DNA from: a virus
Direction: 5' to 3' (one strand)
Virus record (IMG/VR): IMGVR_UViG_3300042516_005035
Span: 1-20,915 of that record
Length of the DNA: 20,915 nt
A program made the position numbers and the translations under genes. The notes below the pieces were generated by a model. It was not told where the DNA came from. It made no database searches and was given only the letters and a program-made list of their open reading frames with translations. Below are positions 9,105-17,937 of the stretch, piece after piece (position 1 is the stretch's first letter; each line of letters starts with the position of its first letter).

Positions 9105-9282
9105 AAATACGCTTCGCAGTTCACATGATTGGGCAATTGATAGGATCCACACTCTTTGTGATATAAACGAAGAGCATGAATATCAGAATGCATATGCAAT
9201 TCAACAAGAATTTAATGAATGGTTAGATCCAAATATTGAAGAACACGATATTTTTTCATTAGTGTATATCGGAGAAGAATAA
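9091..9282 (+). CDS. Small acidic protein, unknown function
   Basis: This 63-residue protein starts MTILENTLRSSHDWAIDRIH. The ATG at 9091 was preferred over an in-frame TTG at 9022 because it gives a short 14-base overlap with the nuclease gene and has AGGA upstream. It is helical and acidic with no recognised motif. The stop overlaps the next ATG (TAATG), so it is coupled to the C39 peptidase gene. Confidence 0.65.
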   Translation: MTILENTLRSSHDWAIDRIHTLCDINEEHEYQNAYAIQQEFNEWLDPNIEEHDIFSLVYIGEE

Positions 9283-9983
9283 TGAAAGTAGATCTTCATA
9301 ACTTTTTTCAATATTATGATCCAAAAAATCCAAAGCACGTTGCCGCAGTTGAGCAACTTGAAAAGGATTTAGAATCTAAAAATCCAGATTTGATTGATGA
9401 TACATCAAATTGGGTTAGAATTTTTAGAACTAAACTAGAACCTGTAATTCCAGGAATTCTGAACGTTCCTTATTATCCACAGACAGATAATTACAGAGAT
9501 GCAAATAGAACCTGTAATTCATCTTCTTGTGCTATGGTATTAGAATACTTTAAACCAGGCACACTTAAGGGAGCAAAGGGCGATGATGCCTATGTTCAAA
9601 AAGTATTTGCTATTGGTGACACAACAGATCACTCAGTTCAGACAAAAGTTCTGGACTCTTATGGTGTTAAGTCACACTTTAGTTACAATCTTTCTTTTGC
9701 TGATCTTGATCGTGAGCTTGCCGCTGGGAAACCTGTCGTTATCGGGATTCTTCATCGGGGTTCTTTATCTGCACCTACTGGTGGGCACATGGTTGTAGTG
9801 ATCGGTAAGAAGGGTGAAGACTACGTTGTCAACGATCCTTATGGTTCTCTAAATGATGGATATACTGGAGCAGTTACAAATGGTAAAGGTGCTGTATATA
9901 AGAAGTCAGATCTTACTTACCGATGGTTAGATAAAGGAAAAGATAAGACTGGGTGGGGTCGTATTTTTGACGTAAAAAAGTAG
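9282..9983 (+). CDS. C39-type cysteine peptidase domain protein; probable 0-frame product of a frameshifted gene
   Basis: This 233-residue protein has an N-terminal helical region of about 60 residues, then a papain-like C39 fold. The catalytic cysteine lies in TCNSSSCAMVLEYF, the histidine in TGGHMVVVIGKK and the aspartate in DYVVNDPYG. C39-type domains cleave peptides, and in phage lysins may act on peptidoglycan cross-links. The gene ends GTA AAA AAG TAG: the slippery heptamer A AAA AAG directly precedes the stop. A lysozyme domain without its own start continues in the -1 frame. This frame is therefore likely both a stand-alone peptidase and the N-terminal half of a 396-residue fusion. 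There is no signal peptide. Confidence 0.85.
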   Translation: MKVDLHNFFQYYDPKNPKHVAAVEQLEKDLESKNPDLIDDTSNWVRIFRTKLEPVIPGILNVPYYPQTDNYRDANRTCNSSSCAMVLEYFKPGTLKGAKGDDAYVQKVFAIGDTTDHSVQTKVLDSYGVKSHFSYNLSFADLDRELAAGKPVVIGILHRGSLSAPTGGHMVVVIGKKGEDYVVNDPYGSLNDGYTGAVTNGKGAVYKKSDLTYRWLDKGKDKTGWGRIFDVKK

Positions 9984-10053
9984 AGTCAACACCGTTTAAG
10001 AATGACATCCCTCTTTGTGGTGTTCAATTAATTAAAACTTTTGAGGGATGTCA
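9974..10053 (+). promoter_or_regulatory. Candidate programmed -1 frameshift signal (slippery site plus pseudoknot)
   Basis: The heptamer A AAA AAG occupies 9974-9980 in the correct phase, followed at once by TAG. Seven bases later AACACC (9988-9993) can pair with GGTGTT (10019-10024). Interleaved with it, TGACATCCCTC (10003-10013) pairs perfectly with GAGGGATGTCA (10043-10053), giving an H-type pseudoknot topology. Loops are about 9, 5 and 18 bases. A weak purine stretch (GGGTGGGG at 9950-9957) lies upstream but is not a good Shine-Dalgarno-like stimulator. A single-base sequencing error in the A-run is the main alternative. Confidence 0.7.
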
Positions 10054-10471
10054 CCTAAATGCATATCCAGATCCTTTAACAAAAGGACCTCCCATCACAA
10101 TAGGGTGGGGCAGTACAAGGGACTTTGATGGAACTCCTTTTAAAATGGGAAGAGTGATCACTCAAAAGTATGCTGATACTTTACTTGAGTTTGATTTAAA
10201 AAATAGGTTTCTTCCATCACTTTCAAAAATACCATATTGGGGAGAGATGAATGAAAATCAACAAGGCGCAATTCTTAGCTTTGCTTATAATCTTGGCGCT
10301 GATTTTTATGGAAGCTCTGATTTTAATACGATAACAAGAGTCTTAAAACATAAAGAGTGGTCTAAAGTTCCTGATGCCTTATATCTTTATCGTAATGCAG
10401 GAACAAGAGTTGAGGTGGGATTAGCGAGAAGAAGAAAAGCAGAAGGAACTCTTTGGAATACTCACATATAA
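9980..10471 (+). CDS. GH24 lysozyme domain (endolysin), reached by -1 frameshift from C39 frame
   Basis: The frame encodes a lysozyme of glycoside hydrolase family 24, which cuts the peptidoglycan glycan chain. LIKTFEGCHLNAYPDP carries the catalytic Glu and an Asp nine residues on, the same spacing as E11/D20 of T4 lysozyme, and TIGWGST supplies the Thr region. The C-terminal half (NQQGAILSFAYNLG, then VGLARRRKAEGTLW) is typical. No ATG, GTG or TTG exists in frame before the catalytic Glu; the first ATG (10145) would give a protein lacking the active site. The frame joins the C39 frame exactly at the -1 shift site. Its end overlaps the convergent nuclease gene by 10 bases. Confidence 0.8.
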   Translation, partial: VESTPFKNDIPLCGVQLIKTFEGCHLNAYPDPLTKGPPITIGWGSTRDFDGTPFKMGRVITQKYADTLLEFDLKNRFLPSLSKIPYWGEMNENQQGAILSFAYNLGADFYGSSDFNTITRVLKHKEWSKVPDALYLYRNAGTRVEVGLARRRKAEGTLWNTHI

Positions 10472-11307: not shown

Positions 11308-11435
11308 GGAAAAATCCCTGTTATGAGCAGGGTACTTATTATGAGATTTTGAGTTTGATTTAGAGCCGTGGAAAGTGCCCTTTGAGAAAAGGGTGTACCC
11401 CCTTTCTATACGGATGTAGAGTTCAATTAATTTTA
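11308..11435 (+). other. Structured 5' leader of the secreted lysozyme gene
   Basis: About 125 bases separate the promoter from the gene without a convincing gene. Foldable pieces are CCCTG/CAGGG with a 7-base loop near 11317-11333, an outer AAAATC/GATTTT pair around it, and a nested element in which CCGT pairs with ACGG and GAAAG with CTTTC around CCCTTTGAGAAAAGGG (11365-11413). The structure may be a regulatory leader; no known riboswitch consensus was matched. Confidence 0.4.
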
Positions 11436-12059
11436 ATGCTAAACATCTTTACTGTAGCCCTGCCTCTTCTGGCAACGGTTACAACCGCAACGGCAACACT
11501 GCCATCATCTGCTACTGCTCCTTCATATTCTATTATTAAGGAGTTTGAACCAGAGAAGACAGCGATCCTAGAGGTTGCTCCCGAAAAGCCAAAAGAGAAA
11601 AGGCTAATTTGTAAAGGGTGTAATGAAAATGAAAATGCTACCCTGGCATACTTCCAGGAGCGTGGTATTAAAGACAAAAACGCCCTTGCTACCATTATGG
11701 GTAATATTCGTCAGGAATCAACTTTTATTCCTAACATTTGCGAAGGTGGTAGCAGAACCAGTTGGAGTAACTGCGGACGTGGTTACGGACTGATTCAATG
11801 GACATCTGCCGATCGTTATTATGGATTGGGTGATTTTGCTAAGAGGTATGGTGGTTCTCCATCAGCACTTCCGACACAACTTCGATATCTAACGACTGAA
11901 GTTCAATGGAGACGAATTGAAGATAGGATGAAAACCCCTGGTAAGTCTATCAATCGTTATATGGACTATGCGTATAGTTGGATTGGTTGGGGGCATCACG
12001 GTGCCCGTACCTCATATGCTTATGATTATGCTAACAGAATGATCACCGTAGATCTCTGA
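11436..12059 (+). CDS. Secreted lysozyme-like protein (phage tail lysozyme family)
   Basis: This 207-residue protein begins with a hydrophobic signal-like segment (MLNIFTVALPLLATVTTATA), so I chose the ATG at 11436 over an upstream in-frame TTG at 11382. After a Pro/Lys/Glu linker comes a lysozyme-like domain: LAYFQERGIKDKNALATIMG, NIRQESTF (probable catalytic Glu), RGYGLIQWT, then a helical end with WIGWGHHG. This matches the phage tail-lysozyme (Phage_lysozyme2) plan, which hydrolyses peptidoglycan. The signal would place it in the periplasm, unlike the C39/GH24 product. No strong ribosome binding site is visible (AATTAATTTTAATG). A terminator follows. Confidence 0.8.
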   Translation: MLNIFTVALPLLATVTTATATLPSSATAPSYSIIKEFEPEKTAILEVAPEKPKEKRLICKGCNENENATLAYFQERGIKDKNALATIMGNIRQESTFIPNICEGGSRTSWSNCGRGYGLIQWTSADRYYGLGDFAKRYGGSPSALPTQLRYLTTEVQWRRIEDRMKTPGKSINRYMDYAYSWIGWGHHGARTSYAYDYANRMITVDL

Positions 12060-13294: not shown

Positions 13295-13366
13295 GGGTTT
13301 GTAACTCAACGGTAGAGTAACGGGCTTTTAACCTGGAAGTTGTGGGTTCAAATCCCACTAAACCCA
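13295..13366 (+). tRNA. tRNA-Lys (UUU anticodon)
   Basis: Acceptor GGGTTTG pairs with TAAACCC, and the anticodon loop is CTTTTAA (TTT). It begins directly after the encoded CCA of tRNA-Ser, so the two share a precursor. It reads AAA/AAG, the codons of the candidate frameshift site at 9974. No CCA is encoded. Confidence 0.93.
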
Positions 13367-14296: not shown

Positions 14297-15763
14297 ATGA
14301 AACTCAAACAACTGATGCTTGCACCTGTTGCTCTGGGGATGGTTGCTCCTGTTGCTGCGAATGCGGCAGATCTTAATATGGCAGCAGTCAATCAATACTC
14401 CAGTGAACAGGTCACAAGCGTTTCGCAGTTTTCTGATGTAAAGCCCACTGACTGGGCATATCAGGCACTCAGCAACCTTGTAGAGCGTTATGGATGTGTT
14501 GCTGGTTATCCTAACGGCACCTATGGTGGTGGTAAGGCAATGACTCGTTATGAGGCAGCAGCACTCTTGAATGCTTGCCTCGACCGCGTGACCGAAGTTA
14601 CTGATGAACTGAAGCGTCTTCAGAACGAATTTGCTGCTGAACTTGCTGTTCTTCGTGGTCGTGTGGACAAACTGGAATCACAAGTCGGTGAACTTGAGGC
14701 AACTCAATTCTCCACCACAACCAAACTGCGTGGTGAAGCAAACTTCGTGATCGGCAATGTTGATGACTACAAGACTAAAGATGGTGATCAAACTCGTGCC
14801 GCATTCAATTACGATCTGCGTCTGAATCTGGATACTTCGTTTACTGGAAAAGATTTGCTTCGCACTCGTCTGCGTTCTGCTAACTTCAGTAGCGATCCTT
14901 TCGGTTCTAGTTCTTCACTATTCAAACTTGATAAGGCAGACGGTACTGTCAGCGAAGTTGGTAACAACGTAGTTATCGACCGTCTGTACTATCAGTTCCC
15001 TGTGTTTAATAACAGCACTACTATTACTGCTGGTGCTCTTGTTCGTAACACTGAAATTGCTTGGGTTCCTTCTGCTTATAACTCCAAGATCCTTGACTTC
15101 TTCCAAGTTGGCGGTACTCCTGGTGTCTATAACAAGGCAGTTGGTTCTGGTTTCGGTATCCAGTACGGCAAGAAAGGTCTTGTTGCTGGCGTAAACTATG
15201 TTGCACAAGCAGGTCAAGATAGTGAGCGTGGTGAATTTGATGAGTCTGGTGCTCTGAACACTTTGGCACAAATCGGTTATCGTGGTGATAACTACGGTAT
15301 TGCATTTGGTTACCGTTATGGTACTGAAGGCACTCGTGTTCGTACCTATAATGGTCTGAATGGTGCTTCTGGTGCTCTTGCTCCTGGTCAAACTTCTAAC
15401 GGTTATGCTCTGAACGCATACTGGCAACCTTCTCAGTCTGGTTGGGTTCCCTCTATCTCTGCTGGTTATGGTTGGAACACTGTAAGTGGCACCAAGAGTG
15501 ACGCTACCGATAGCCAGTCTTGGATGGCAGGTCTTCAGTGGGAAGATGTCTTTGTTGATGGTAATACTGCTGGTGTTGCTATCGGTCAAGCACCTACTGG
15601 AGAAGACCTTGAGAAGTCAACGATGCTTGAGTTCTTCTATAAGTATCAGGTGTCTGATAACATCAGCATCACTCCTGCAATCTTCTACGCAAGCGACAAT
15701 CAGCGTCTTGCTAAAGATTCCTCCAACTGGGGTGGTGTAATCCAGACGACCTTTAAGTTCTGA
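14297..15763 (+). CDS. Cyanobacterial-type outer-membrane porin (SLH plus OprB-like barrel)
   Basis: A 488-residue full-length cyanobacterial porin (Som type). The N-terminus has a signal peptide (MKLKQLMLAPVALGMVAPVA, cleavage after ANA). An SLH domain follows at about 44-100 (FSDVKPTDWAYQALSNLVER, then MTRYEAAALLNACLDRVTEV), which anchors to cell-wall polymer. Next is a coiled coil (LRGRVDKLESQVGELEATQF), then a beta-barrel of about 350 residues ending in Phe (IQTTFKF), the usual outer-membrane insertion signal. Such porins pass ions and small solutes. Base composition looks richer in G+C than the flanking genes, suggesting host origin. It has no clear ribosome binding site. With PstS it forms a likely uptake cassette. 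Confidence 0.92.
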   Translation: MKLKQLMLAPVALGMVAPVAANAADLNMAAVNQYSSEQVTSVSQFSDVKPTDWAYQALSNLVERYGCVAGYPNGTYGGGKAMTRYEAAALLNACLDRVTEVTDELKRLQNEFAAELAVLRGRVDKLESQVGELEATQFSTTTKLRGEANFVIGNVDDYKTKDGDQTRAAFNYDLRLNLDTSFTGKDLLRTRLRSANFSSDPFGSSSSLFKLDKADGTVSEVGNNVVIDRLYYQFPVFNNSTTITAGALVRNTEIAWVPSAYNSKILDFFQVGGTPGVYNKAVGSGFGIQYGKKGLVAGVNYVAQAGQDSERGEFDESGALNTLAQIGYRGDNYGIAFGYRYGTEGTRVRTYNGLNGASGALAPGQTSNGYALNAYWQPSQSGWVPSISAGYGWNTVSGTKSDATDSQSWMAGLQWEDVFVDGNTAGVAIGQAPTGEDLEKSTMLEFFYKYQVSDNISITPAIFYASDNQRLAKDSSNWGGVIQTTFKF

Positions 15764-16200: not shown

Positions 16201-17163
16201 ATGAAACTCAAACACATTTTTGCAATTGGTCTTCTTGCTGCACCTACTGCTGCACTTGCGGGAACGACTTTGAACGGTGCTGGTGCCACCTTCCCTGCAC
16301 CAATTTATCAACGCTGGTTCCAAGATTATGCACGAACTTCTGGGAATAGGGTTAATTATCAGTCCGTTGGTTCTGGTGCTGGTGTTCGTCAATTCCTTGC
16401 GGGCACAGTTGACTTCGGAGCAAGCGACGAACCAATCAAACCAGCAGAAGCAGCAAAGGTGAAGCGTGGTGTCGTTCAGATTCCTATGGTGGGTGGAACG
16501 ATTGCTGTTGCTTATAACAAACCAGGTTGTACTCTGAAACTCACTCAGAAGCAAACTGTAGACATCTTTGCTGGTCGCATTAAGGACTGGAAGGCACTTG
16601 GATGTGCTGCTGGTCCTATTCGCACCGTATATCGTGCGGATGGTTCTGGAACCACTTATGCATTCACTAATTCTCTAGATGCTTTTGGTGGATGGAAAGC
16701 AGGTGTAGGTAAGGCAGTTAAGTGGCCTACTGGTATTGGTGCAAAAGGAAATGAAGGTGTTTCAGGATCCATTCGCCAAACTCCTGGATCTATTGGTTAT
16801 GTCAATACTGGATTTGTAAAAGCAAATAAACTCCAAGCAGCAGCAATTCAAAATAAGGCAGGTAAGTTTGTTCTTCCTACTGCTGCTTCTGGTTCTGCTG
16901 CACTGAATGGTATCAAACTAGATGCGAACCTTGCTGGTGAGAATCCAAATCCTGCAGGCGCAACTGCATATCCAATTTCAACTCTGACTTGGGTTCTTGC
17001 ATATAAGACTGGTAATGGTGAAAAGGCAGATGATATTCGTGCTGCTCTCAAGTATTCTTTGAGTTCTAAAGCACAGGGTATTGCTGATGATCTGGGTTAT
17101 GTTCCTTTGAGTGGTTCTATCCTTAATAAGGCACGTATTGCCGTAGACCGTATCACTAAGTGA
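16201..17163 (+). CDS. pstS: Periplasmic phosphate-binding protein of ABC transporter
   Basis: A 320-residue PstS that binds phosphate in the periplasm and hands it to the host PstCAB transporter. It has a signal peptide (MKLKHIFAIGLLAAPTAALA), then LNGAGATFPAPIYQRW, YQSVGSGAGVRQFLAGTVDF GASD, RADGSGTTYAFTNSL and GNEGVSGSI. These are the usual phosphate-loop segments with Ser, Thr, Asp and Arg ligands. The length is normal. The first 14 bases of the gene are identical to the start of the porin gene. No ribosome binding site is evident. A PHO box candidate lies upstream and a terminator follows. It is a known cyanophage auxiliary gene for phosphate-starved hosts. Confidence 0.95.
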   Translation: MKLKHIFAIGLLAAPTAALAGTTLNGAGATFPAPIYQRWFQDYARTSGNRVNYQSVGSGAGVRQFLAGTVDFGASDEPIKPAEAAKVKRGVVQIPMVGGTIAVAYNKPGCTLKLTQKQTVDIFAGRIKDWKALGCAAGPIRTVYRADGSGTTYAFTNSLDAFGGWKAGVGKAVKWPTGIGAKGNEGVSGSIRQTPGSIGYVNTGFVKANKLQAAAIQNKAGKFVLPTAASGSAALNGIKLDANLAGENPNPAGATAYPISTLTWVLAYKTGNGEKADDIRAALKYSLSSKAQGIADDLGYVPLSGSILNKARIAVDRITK

Positions 17164-17502: not shown

Positions 17503-17937
17503 ATGGAAAAACTTTATAAATTACTTAGTGATGCTCAGGCATCACTTTTTGTGCTATTTCATAAAACTTGGGCATTTCATTGGAATGTAGTAGGGTCTGA
17601 TTTCACACAACTTCACCAACTTTTTGGTGGACAATATGAAACTATGTTTGAAGAGATCGATCGTCTCTCTGAACATATGCGTTTTTTAAATGTAAAACCT
17701 TTAAGTTCTCTTTCTAGAATGCTTGAGGTTACTCAGATTAAAGAGGCAGCAAGTTCAACTACAGCAAACAATATGCTCTCAGAACTCCTTGAAAATAATG
17801 AAAAGTTTTGTGATTTATTGAAGGAAATTTCTGATGAAGCAGAAGATCAGAAGTCATATGCTACTGCTAATTTGGTTCAAGATTTAATGGAATCGCACGG
17901 TAAGTTTATTTGGATGTTAAGATCACATTTACAATAA
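17503..17937 (+). CDS. Dps-like ferritin-family protein
   Basis: A 144-residue four-helix protein with the Dps core: FHKTWAFHWNVVGSDFTQLH, then EEIDRLSEHMRFLN. Dps forms 12-mers that store iron and bind DNA, protecting it from oxidation. Comparing with E. coli Dps ferroxidase residues, H26 (H51), H38 (H63), D53 (D78) and E57 (E82) are present, but the D67 position is Gly42, so iron oxidation may be altered. There is no basic N-terminal tail as in E. coli, so DNA binding is uncertain. An exact late promoter lies upstream; a zinc-ribbon gene follows after 15 bases. Confidence 0.8.
   Translation: MEKLYKLLSDAQASLFVLFHKTWAFHWNVVGSDFTQLHQLFGGQYETMFEEIDRLSEHMRFLNVKPLSSLSRMLEVTQIKEAASSTTANNMLSELLENNEKFCDLLKEISDEAEDQKSYATANLVQDLMESHGKFIWMLRSHLQ

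Follow-up and report, generated by a model that had tools for sequence, protein, structure and literature searches.

The stretch of DNA analyzed here (the window) is a 20,915-base virus sequence holding nrdA, nrdB, a GIY-YIG endonuclease gene, tRNA genes, and other genes of cyanophage-like character; the parts of the lysin locus and the tRNA-Lys gene given below lie on its plus strand. At the lysin locus, megablast returned matches to five records, from the Synechococcus phages S-SRM01 and S-PM2, and the near neighbors are nrdA, nrdB, SegE-like, and SNase genes. The zero-frame open reading frame (ORF) at positions 9282 to 9983 encodes 233 amino acids, an N-terminal module followed by a Peptidase_C39_2 domain (Pfam PF13529, residues 60 to 187, E value 8.1e-15). 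Residues C78, H169, and D185, which we take to be a papain-like triad, are invariant in an alignment of eight sequences, the window included, and the product is a predicted C39-type peptidase; a search of the PDB with the C39 profile found no sequence relative at an E value of 0.01. The N-terminal module (about 51 amino acids, 9282 to 9434) covers roughly the first 50 peptidase residues, has no Pfam match of its own, and also precedes GH24 lysozyme domains in relatives where the GH24 does not adjoin a C39.

The peptidase frame ends GTA AAA AAG TAG, with the slippery heptamer A AAA AAG in phase at 9974 to 9980 (six A's at 9974 to 9979 and a G at 9980) and the TAG stop directly 3' of it at 9981 to 9983. 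A second ORF, at 9971 to 10471, encodes a linker and a GH24 phage lysozyme (Pfam PF00959, E value 7.6e-22) in exactly the -1 frame, and its residues E22, D31, and T40, presumably the T4 lysozyme triad, are invariant in an alignment of seven sequences that includes the window. The last in-frame stop of the GH24 frame is TGA at 9968 to 9970, so the two frames overlap over 9971 to 9983 only and a shift must fall there; translation after the shift would run from 9980 and add 163 amino acids. No ATG, GTG, or TTG precedes the catalytic Glu codon (10043 to 10045) in the GH24 frame, and the first ORF opening with such a codon starts only at 10145, 100 nt past it. The initial annotation had read the heptamer, its phase, the -1 relation, and the missing start codon in this way, and each was found again on rereading the sequence.

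Two interleaved helices follow the slip site. The 5' arm of stem 1 (AACACCGT, 9988 to 9995) begins after a spacer of 7 nt and pairs with GTGGTGTT at 10017 to 10024; its core, AACACC/GGTGTT, lengthens to 8 bp when two G-U pairs are counted, and the corresponding stem covaries in relatives. The 5' arm of stem 2 (TGACATCCCTC, 10003 to 10013) lies within the loop of stem 1 and forms a perfect 11-bp helix with GAGGGATGTCA at 10043 to 10053, the first codon of which is the catalytic Glu codon; complementarity between loop and downstream sequence also occurs in relatives. The pseudoknot topology that had been described here, with a 6-bp and an 11-bp stem, is borne out, the shorter stem growing to 8 bp. 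Its crossing-pair score was reached by 2 of 3,000 dinucleotide shuffles and by none of 1,668 window tiles taken from both strands, and the 11-bp helix alone by 6 of the shuffles and 7 of the tiles. With the pseudoknot left out, the minimum-energy 60-nt fold of the window site is unremarkable (z = -0.7).

We propose that ribosomes would translate the N-terminal module and then the C39 peptidase, and that at A AAA AAG the Lys-tRNAs in the P and A sites would re-pair one base back, on AAA AAA, the slip being aided by a hairpin or pseudoknot a few nucleotides downstream (7 nt in the window). Those staying in the zero frame would terminate at TAG and release the 233-amino-acid peptidase; those that slip would continue through the GH24 to give a peptidase-lysozyme of 396 amino acids. 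Since the window GH24 has no usual start codon, it would be made only as the fusion, which would also supply it with the N-terminal module. The initial annotation had called A AAA AAG the most shift-prone heptamer known in E. coli; PMC4066793 places it, with C CCA AAG and G GGA AAG, among the three best E. coli slip motifs and not as the single best, and gives 54% as the value reached by C CCA AAG with the IS3 pseudoknot.

The locus was compared with others collected in scans that each kept the best 80 loci by likeness to the query, and all counts below describe near relatives, not all cyanophages. In a first set of 272 sources (GenBank phages, IMG/VR, and the window), with GH24 taken as adjacent when within 120 nt of the C39 domain, 164 loci with an adjacent GH24 gave 102 distinct junctions, 12 of them in-frame fusions and 90 with the GH24 in -1. 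Within two codons of the stop, 85 of the 90 carry an in-phase heptamer of the form X XXY YYZ, and the other 5 are ATGA or GTGA overlaps; another 68 distinct C39 genes in the set lack an adjacent GH24, and no heptamer occurs in their last six codons. Four more scans brought the full set to 578 sources, for which adjacency meant within 130 nt, and to 266 distinct C39 ends after 31 had been dropped (24 without a complete C39, 5 with ORFs running off, and 2 with less than 200 nt after the stop). A GH24 is adjacent at 138 of these 266 ends, always in -1 and never in +1 or in frame 0 behind a stop, and a further 22 are in-frame C39-GH24 fusions. Pairing out to 400 nt gave nine pairs in +1, none of them within the 120- or 130-nt limits.

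In this full set, the heptamer stands in phase within two codons of the stop at 132 of the 138 adjacent junctions, the window included: A AAA AAG at 114, C CCA AAG at 14, T TTT TTT at 3, and A AAA AAA at 1. All six junctions lacking it have an ATGA or GTGA overlap. None of the 58 ends with a GH24 more than 130 nt away has a heptamer so placed, nor do any of the 48 without a GH24 in the locus (0 of 106 together). The sequences are related: clustered at 80% identity, the C39 parts of the 266 junctions form 41 groups, and 22 of these include a slip-site member. Elsewhere in the C39 body, A AAA AAG occurs in phase at 5 of 52,136 codon positions; among 693 mechanical control ORFs of the first-set loci, an X XXY YYZ of any kind lies no more than two codons from the stop in 11 and a strong one in 2, neither of which leads into 80 or more open -1 codons. 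The coding capacity of the -1 frame is conserved, with the GH24 in -1 and its active-site residues invariant in the seven sequences aligned. These counts show that, among the loci examined, the putative slip site occurs only where it would be needed.

The initial annotation had raised the possibility of a misread A run. In that case the true gene would be an in-frame fusion, its six A's being a seven-A run that was miscalled or, in a recent pseudogene, mutated, and the 22 in-frame fusions fit such an origin, as do two seven-A, in-frame fusions (L072 and L228) that retain the stem and are placed among slip-site relatives on the C39 tree. Against it, the state of six A's and a GH24 in -1 is shared by 114 distinct junctions and by two S-PM2 records; C CCA AAG, T TTT TTT, and, in a sister arrangement described below, G GGA AAG cannot come from an error in an A run; and the downstream stems covary. 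On these three grounds we reject sequencing error, and an indel of either kind is vanishingly unlikely. The conserved frame break and covarying stems that the same annotation had looked to in homologous loci are both present, the break at 138 of 138 adjacent pairs.

Start codons bear on a second alternative. In the first set, the stretch of the -1 frame from its last stop to the catalytic motif is free of ATG, GTG, and TTG at 39 of the 90 -1 junctions; of the others, 16 have a start codon at the stop overlap (11 of these with the heptamer), and 35 have one elsewhere in the frame, often a TTG or GTG within the linker or at the motif; the 85 heptamer junctions divide into 39, 11, and 35 in the same order. 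In 53 of the 90, the -1 frame becomes open at the slip site itself, 10 nt ahead of the peptidase stop. Separate starts could be in use at the heptamer junctions that have such a codon (35 plus 11 of the 85), and if this were general, the GH24 would be translated by re-initiation or from a noncanonical start (e.g., ATC or ATT) after the peptidase stop, with the heptamer incidental. The six junctions with an ATGA or GTGA overlap and no heptamer fit this reading, a further 15 of the full set have overlap and heptamer together, and in S-PM2 the sequence AAGGAG sits 8 nt upstream of an in-frame ATT. Re-initiation leaves unexplained, however, why the heptamer is present at 132 of 138 adjacent junctions and at 0 of 106 other ends, why a covarying hairpin follows it, and how the GH24 would be made at the 39 junctions without a start codon. 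As a general explanation we reject separate initiation, which is very unlikely; at the 15 junctions with heptamer and overlap, the GH24 could arise by re-initiation.

RNA structure differs among these classes. The 60 nt after the stop were folded and compared with shuffles, giving mean z values of -2.91 for the A AAA AAG class (71 of 100 below -2) and -2.68 for the C CCA AAG class (9 of 14). The T TTT TTT class folds weakly (-0.83, 0 of 3), and the 15 junctions with heptamer and ATGA or GTGA overlap are without a strong hairpin (-0.70, 2 of 15). Relatives with a separate start and no heptamer, which the initial annotation had regarded as evidence against a frameshift, number only 6 of 138, with weak folds after the stop (-0.44, 1 of 6 below -2). 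Mean z is -0.41 where the GH24 lies further away (9 of 58 below -2) and -0.89 where the locus has none (9 of 48), and control windows taken from within the coding sequences of the C39 and the GH24 give values near zero.

In the first set, the best stem exceeded the 95th percentile of 533 control windows at 69 of the 85 heptamer junctions, which together hold 69 distinct pairs of stem arms. The stem starts 5 to 8 nt past the heptamer in 53 of the 85; in 21 it starts at 2 nt, with pairs that extend back into the stop codon. When 18 related sites were aligned without gaps, 98.9% of the cells were paired, compared with 97.8% for shuffled alignments, of which 1 in 500 was as high; four pairs of this same stem have changed on both sides, and slid controls are 36 to 49% paired. 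Helix 2 of the pseudoknot is 99.2% paired in this alignment, with no change on both sides. For the pseudoknot we used 62 of the 85 junctions, namely those that, among the 69 whose stem passed the 95th percentile of the controls, have enough downstream sequence. Pairing between loop and downstream sequence averages -7.2 kcal/mol, against -6.2 kcal/mol when permuted (0 of 2,000 permutations as good), and reaches -9 kcal/mol or better in 24 of the 62; one relative (L063) has a C-A mismatch in this pairing. The catalytic Glu codon, which forms part of the helix in the window, is GAG in all 18 junctions with a CCCTC or CCCCC loop, a count from which shared descent has not been removed, and elsewhere it is GAG in 9, GAA in 30, and unreadable in 5. 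A subset of relatives likely forms a pseudoknot and the rest a plain hairpin, as judged from these pairings. Upstream, a Shine-Dalgarno (SD)-like stimulator was not enriched, the mean anti-SD duplex energy being -6.30 in the heptamer class versus -6.56 and -8.14 in the classes without an adjacent GH24.

The position of the stem also bears on transcriptional slippage, in which the polymerase would restore the frame in part of the mRNA by slipping on the A run. The T TTT TTT of the cultured phage S-CAM7 lies within a run of 8 T's, as such slippage would favor. A run of six A's is, however, short for RNA polymerase slippage; C CCA AAG (14 junctions) and G GGA AAG (14 linkers) are not homopolymers; and a stem at ribosomal spacing is expected of ribosomal, not transcriptional, slippage. 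Transcriptional slippage was rejected on account of the nonhomopolymer motifs and the stem spacing, and it is extremely improbable here.

For slippage by the ribosome, the tRNA-Lys supply is of interest, a sole tRNA-Lys being given in PMC5009743 as the reason for the slipperiness of A AAA AAG, and for slippage on AAG, in E. coli. The window carries a tRNA-Lys gene of its own at 13295 to 13366, with anticodon ttt, which could read AAA and AAG and might do so at the slip site. It also encodes a PstS-like phosphate-binding protein (16201 to 17160) that is 66% identical to that of Cyanobium sp. FGCU52 and 74% identical to that of Synechococcus sp. Cruz CV12-2-Slac-r; one close match is titled Bifidobacterium breve and probably comes from a mislabeled bin. 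On the strength of its PstS, Cyanobium sp. FGCU52 may resemble the host of the phage, and it has a single tRNA-Lys gene, again with anticodon ttt, among all 40 of its 40 tRNA matches. In a draft genome (G001), 30 of 31 tRNA matches could be typed and none of these is a tRNA-Lys, which is uninformative as to a single tRNA-Lys.

Several cultured phages carry the junction in one form or another. S-PM2 has GCA AAA AAG TAA followed by an 11-bp stem, identical in the records of the wild type and of a spontaneous deletion mutant; S-CAM7 has GTT TTT TTT CCA CAG TAG, identical in three isolates; and S-SRM01 has GCA AAA AAG CAA TGA, a heptamer with an ATGA overlap. The annotated lysins of S-PM2 and S-CAM7 are GH24 fragments of 72 to 90 amino acids that start past the active site, as expected if the GH24 frame has no start codon. 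DSL-LC02/03 have the C39 and GH24 as separate genes, and ACG-2014f has them as an in-frame fusion of 405 amino acids. In phage MA01 (L012), the C39 is in frame with a different C-terminal region, in a 422-amino-acid protein with no Pfam match beyond the C39.

Programmed -1 frameshifting at a single phage gene very probably yields two lysis-type enzymes at this locus, and the case for a C39-GH24 protein made by a -1 frameshift at this heptamer appears as strong as sequence alone allows. What was observed is the anatomy, the conservation, and the covariation. That ribosomes shift here at some frequency, that both products serve in lysis, and that their ratio matters is inferred; it is plausible that both are needed, in a ratio. 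The products and setting are not those of the tail assembly chaperone frameshift of dsDNA phages: the products are C39 and GH24 enzymes, and the neighbors (nrdA, nrdB, SegE-like, and SNase genes) are not a tape-measure context.

The N-terminal module marks a second junction. In the GH24 frame it was found at none of 76 slip-site loci, none of 8 loci with heptamer and ATGA, and none of 5 loci with ATGA only. Where GH24 and C39 are separate, 42 distinct GH24 ORFs comprise 25 with the module, 6 with an unmatched region of like length, and 11 with only a short upstream sequence; among these 11, two (L126 and L145) are out of frame with a module and three (L005, L076, and L086) have the reverse gene order. 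Linkers that lead from a module directly to a GH24, with no C39 following, came to 47 distinct sequences among near relatives, 33 in frame and 14 in -1. In all 14 of the latter (L126, L145, L302, L304, L309, L315, L316, L317, L321, L338, L339, L139, L169, and L170), a CPHCGK sequence precedes G GGA AAG, where the module frame ends with TAG or TAA directly behind the heptamer; the module ORF ends CPHCGK.LGK, and a hairpin follows the stop (mean z over the 60 nt after the stop, -2.09; 7 of 14 below -2). ATG codons stand just before the GH24 in 13 of the 14, and a separate GH24 start is possible in this class. A blastn search with one such linker matched four phage records, none of them along more than 67% of the query; the class is known here from metagenomes only, with no isolate seen to carry it.

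The 33 in-frame linkers from module to GH24 (L006 and L007 among them) all hold A AAA AAG in phase. At 27 of the 33, a -1 slip would meet a stop after at most one codon, and the residues that follow vary; the fold after the heptamer surpasses shuffled sequence only slightly (mean z, -1.0; 5 of 33 below -2), in sequences that are related. These genes may possibly use an inverted form of recoding, in which the slip would release the module alone. Among the C39-GH24 fusions, ACG-2014f (L008), L121, and L118 likewise retain A AAA AAG, accompanied by a hairpin and, one codon on, by a -1 stop; a -1 shift could there give a short form. The ACG-2014f site recurs in L705, L707, L708, and L709 and, with a variant stem, in L710; L706 was unmatched by the motif. 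Of 20 distinct linkers from in-frame C39-GH24 fusions, 6 (L228, L072, L008, L513, L121, and L118) have an in-phase heptamer and 14 do not, which makes the inverted arrangement a minority among them. An AlphaFold model of the natural in-frame fusions (A6) was of low confidence (mean pLDDT, 61; pTM, 0.42).

On a FastTree phylogeny of 169 C39 sequences, the five junction states need 30 changes, which implies that recombination or switching has often separated the junction state from the C39 lineage; the slip-site state accounts for at least 8 changes forced by starred branches, and the fused state needs 4. The frameshift could be real and yet serve only as a means of expressing the fusion, the peptidase-only form being a by-product of the same mechanism. 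The existence of in-frame fusions at 22 of 266 junctions, the four changes to the fused state, and the 14 of 20 fusion linkers without a heptamer all agree with that reading, which parallels the suggestion made in PMC5009743 that phage Ig-like domains landed out of frame by chance. An in-frame fusion should be only a small step away, yet 132 junctions keep the slip site and most of them a structure, and A AAA AAG is retained, a -1 stop following within one codon, in some genes whose fusion is already in frame: in ACG-2014f and L121/L118 together with a hairpin, and in 27 of the 33 module-GH24 genes. We hold the by-product reading to be somewhat doubtful, though far from negligible.

Two-enzyme production by programmed frameshifting, which we prefer, could also be part of something wider. 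Cyanophages may keep a multiproduct lysin switch at two junctions and in both polarities, a reading that we advance tentatively and stop short of calling probable. At the C39-GH24 junction, a slip at A AAA AAG, C CCA AAG, or T TTT TTT would add the lysozyme, as would a slip at G GGA AAG at the module-GH24 junction of one group; in the inverted case, an in-frame fusion that has kept A AAA AAG would instead yield a short form (ACG-2014f, L121/L118, and the 27 of 33 in-frame module-GH24 genes). If true, selection would maintain a ratio of short to lysozyme-bearing products, and the shared module would perhaps direct both to one place at a fixed stoichiometry.

Several known systems come close to the scheme. 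Shearman et al. reportedly described in 1994, to go by the title, a lactococcal phage lysin made from two overlapping genes, and the likeness to the present case is by title only. In E. coli dnaX, the frameshift site has a downstream stem-loop and the shift shortens the protein; the lysin shift, unlike that of dnaX, would add a second enzyme domain, and no upstream SD-like stimulator of the dnaX type was found at the lysin sites. The heptamer is the same A AAA AAG, its slippage in dnaX being tied to the sole tRNA-Lys (PMC5009743). The tail assembly chaperones G and GT of dsDNA phages are similar in that a -1 shift near the end of the first gene adds a domain and gives two products; unlike that structural chaperone, which PMC5009743 describes as absent from T4, the case presented here would concern a lysis-type enzyme in T4-like cyanophages. 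Signals of the IS3 family (IS911 and IS3) likewise combine a heptamer with a hairpin or pseudoknot, generally 5 to 8 nt downstream (PMC4066793), in a transposase gene and not, as here, a lysin. The ACG-2014f lysin has the same domains in the same order, and PHROG 3617 spans both parts; unlike the window, it is in one frame, and a -1 shift at the A AAA AAG of its linker would produce the short form. With T4 lysozyme and other GH24 endolysins, the window GH24 shares the Pfam Phage_lysozyme domain, lysozyme relatives in the PDB, and invariant E, D, and T residues; it differs from them in lacking a usual start codon and in being made, on our reading, as a C-terminal extension.

The initial annotation knew of no described phage lysin made in this way, which was too strong, as PMC10885494 names lysins among the genes known to frameshift, Shearman et al. 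1994 standing first among the references that it cites at that point. In the open-license PMC literature searched, a comparison outside which the lactococcal lysin paper falls, no description of a C39-GH24 frameshift was found. The mechanism is of a known kind; in the literature searched we found no account of it serving a two-enzyme lysin in many cyanophage contigs, with motifs that change and structures that covary. Programmed frameshifting would thereby be placed in the lysin gene of T4-like cyanophages, for which that literature yielded no worked-out example, and would account for the S-PM2 and S-CAM7 lysin annotations being fragments that lack the active site. Over 100 slip-site variants occur naturally among these loci, with the three best E. 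coli motifs all in use, and relatives with fused, overlapping-start, and separate genes let recoding be set against its alternatives. Because S-PM2 has been isolated and its host strain is named, the claim can be tested directly.

Some further observations concern gene order and the rest of the window. In S-CREM1 (L005), the fusion is in reverse order, GH24 and then C39 in one frame, and in L076, L086, L089, and L092 a GH24 lies upstream at a similar distance. In the window, a second possible wall enzyme with a Phage_lysozyme2 (tail lysozyme) match and a listed TTG start lies at 11382 to 12059, 0.9 kb after the lysin. Positions 14297 to 15760 encode an OprB-family porin with an S-layer homology domain, which we judge unusual for a phage, and a ferritin-like protein is encoded at 17503 to 17934, in the same region.
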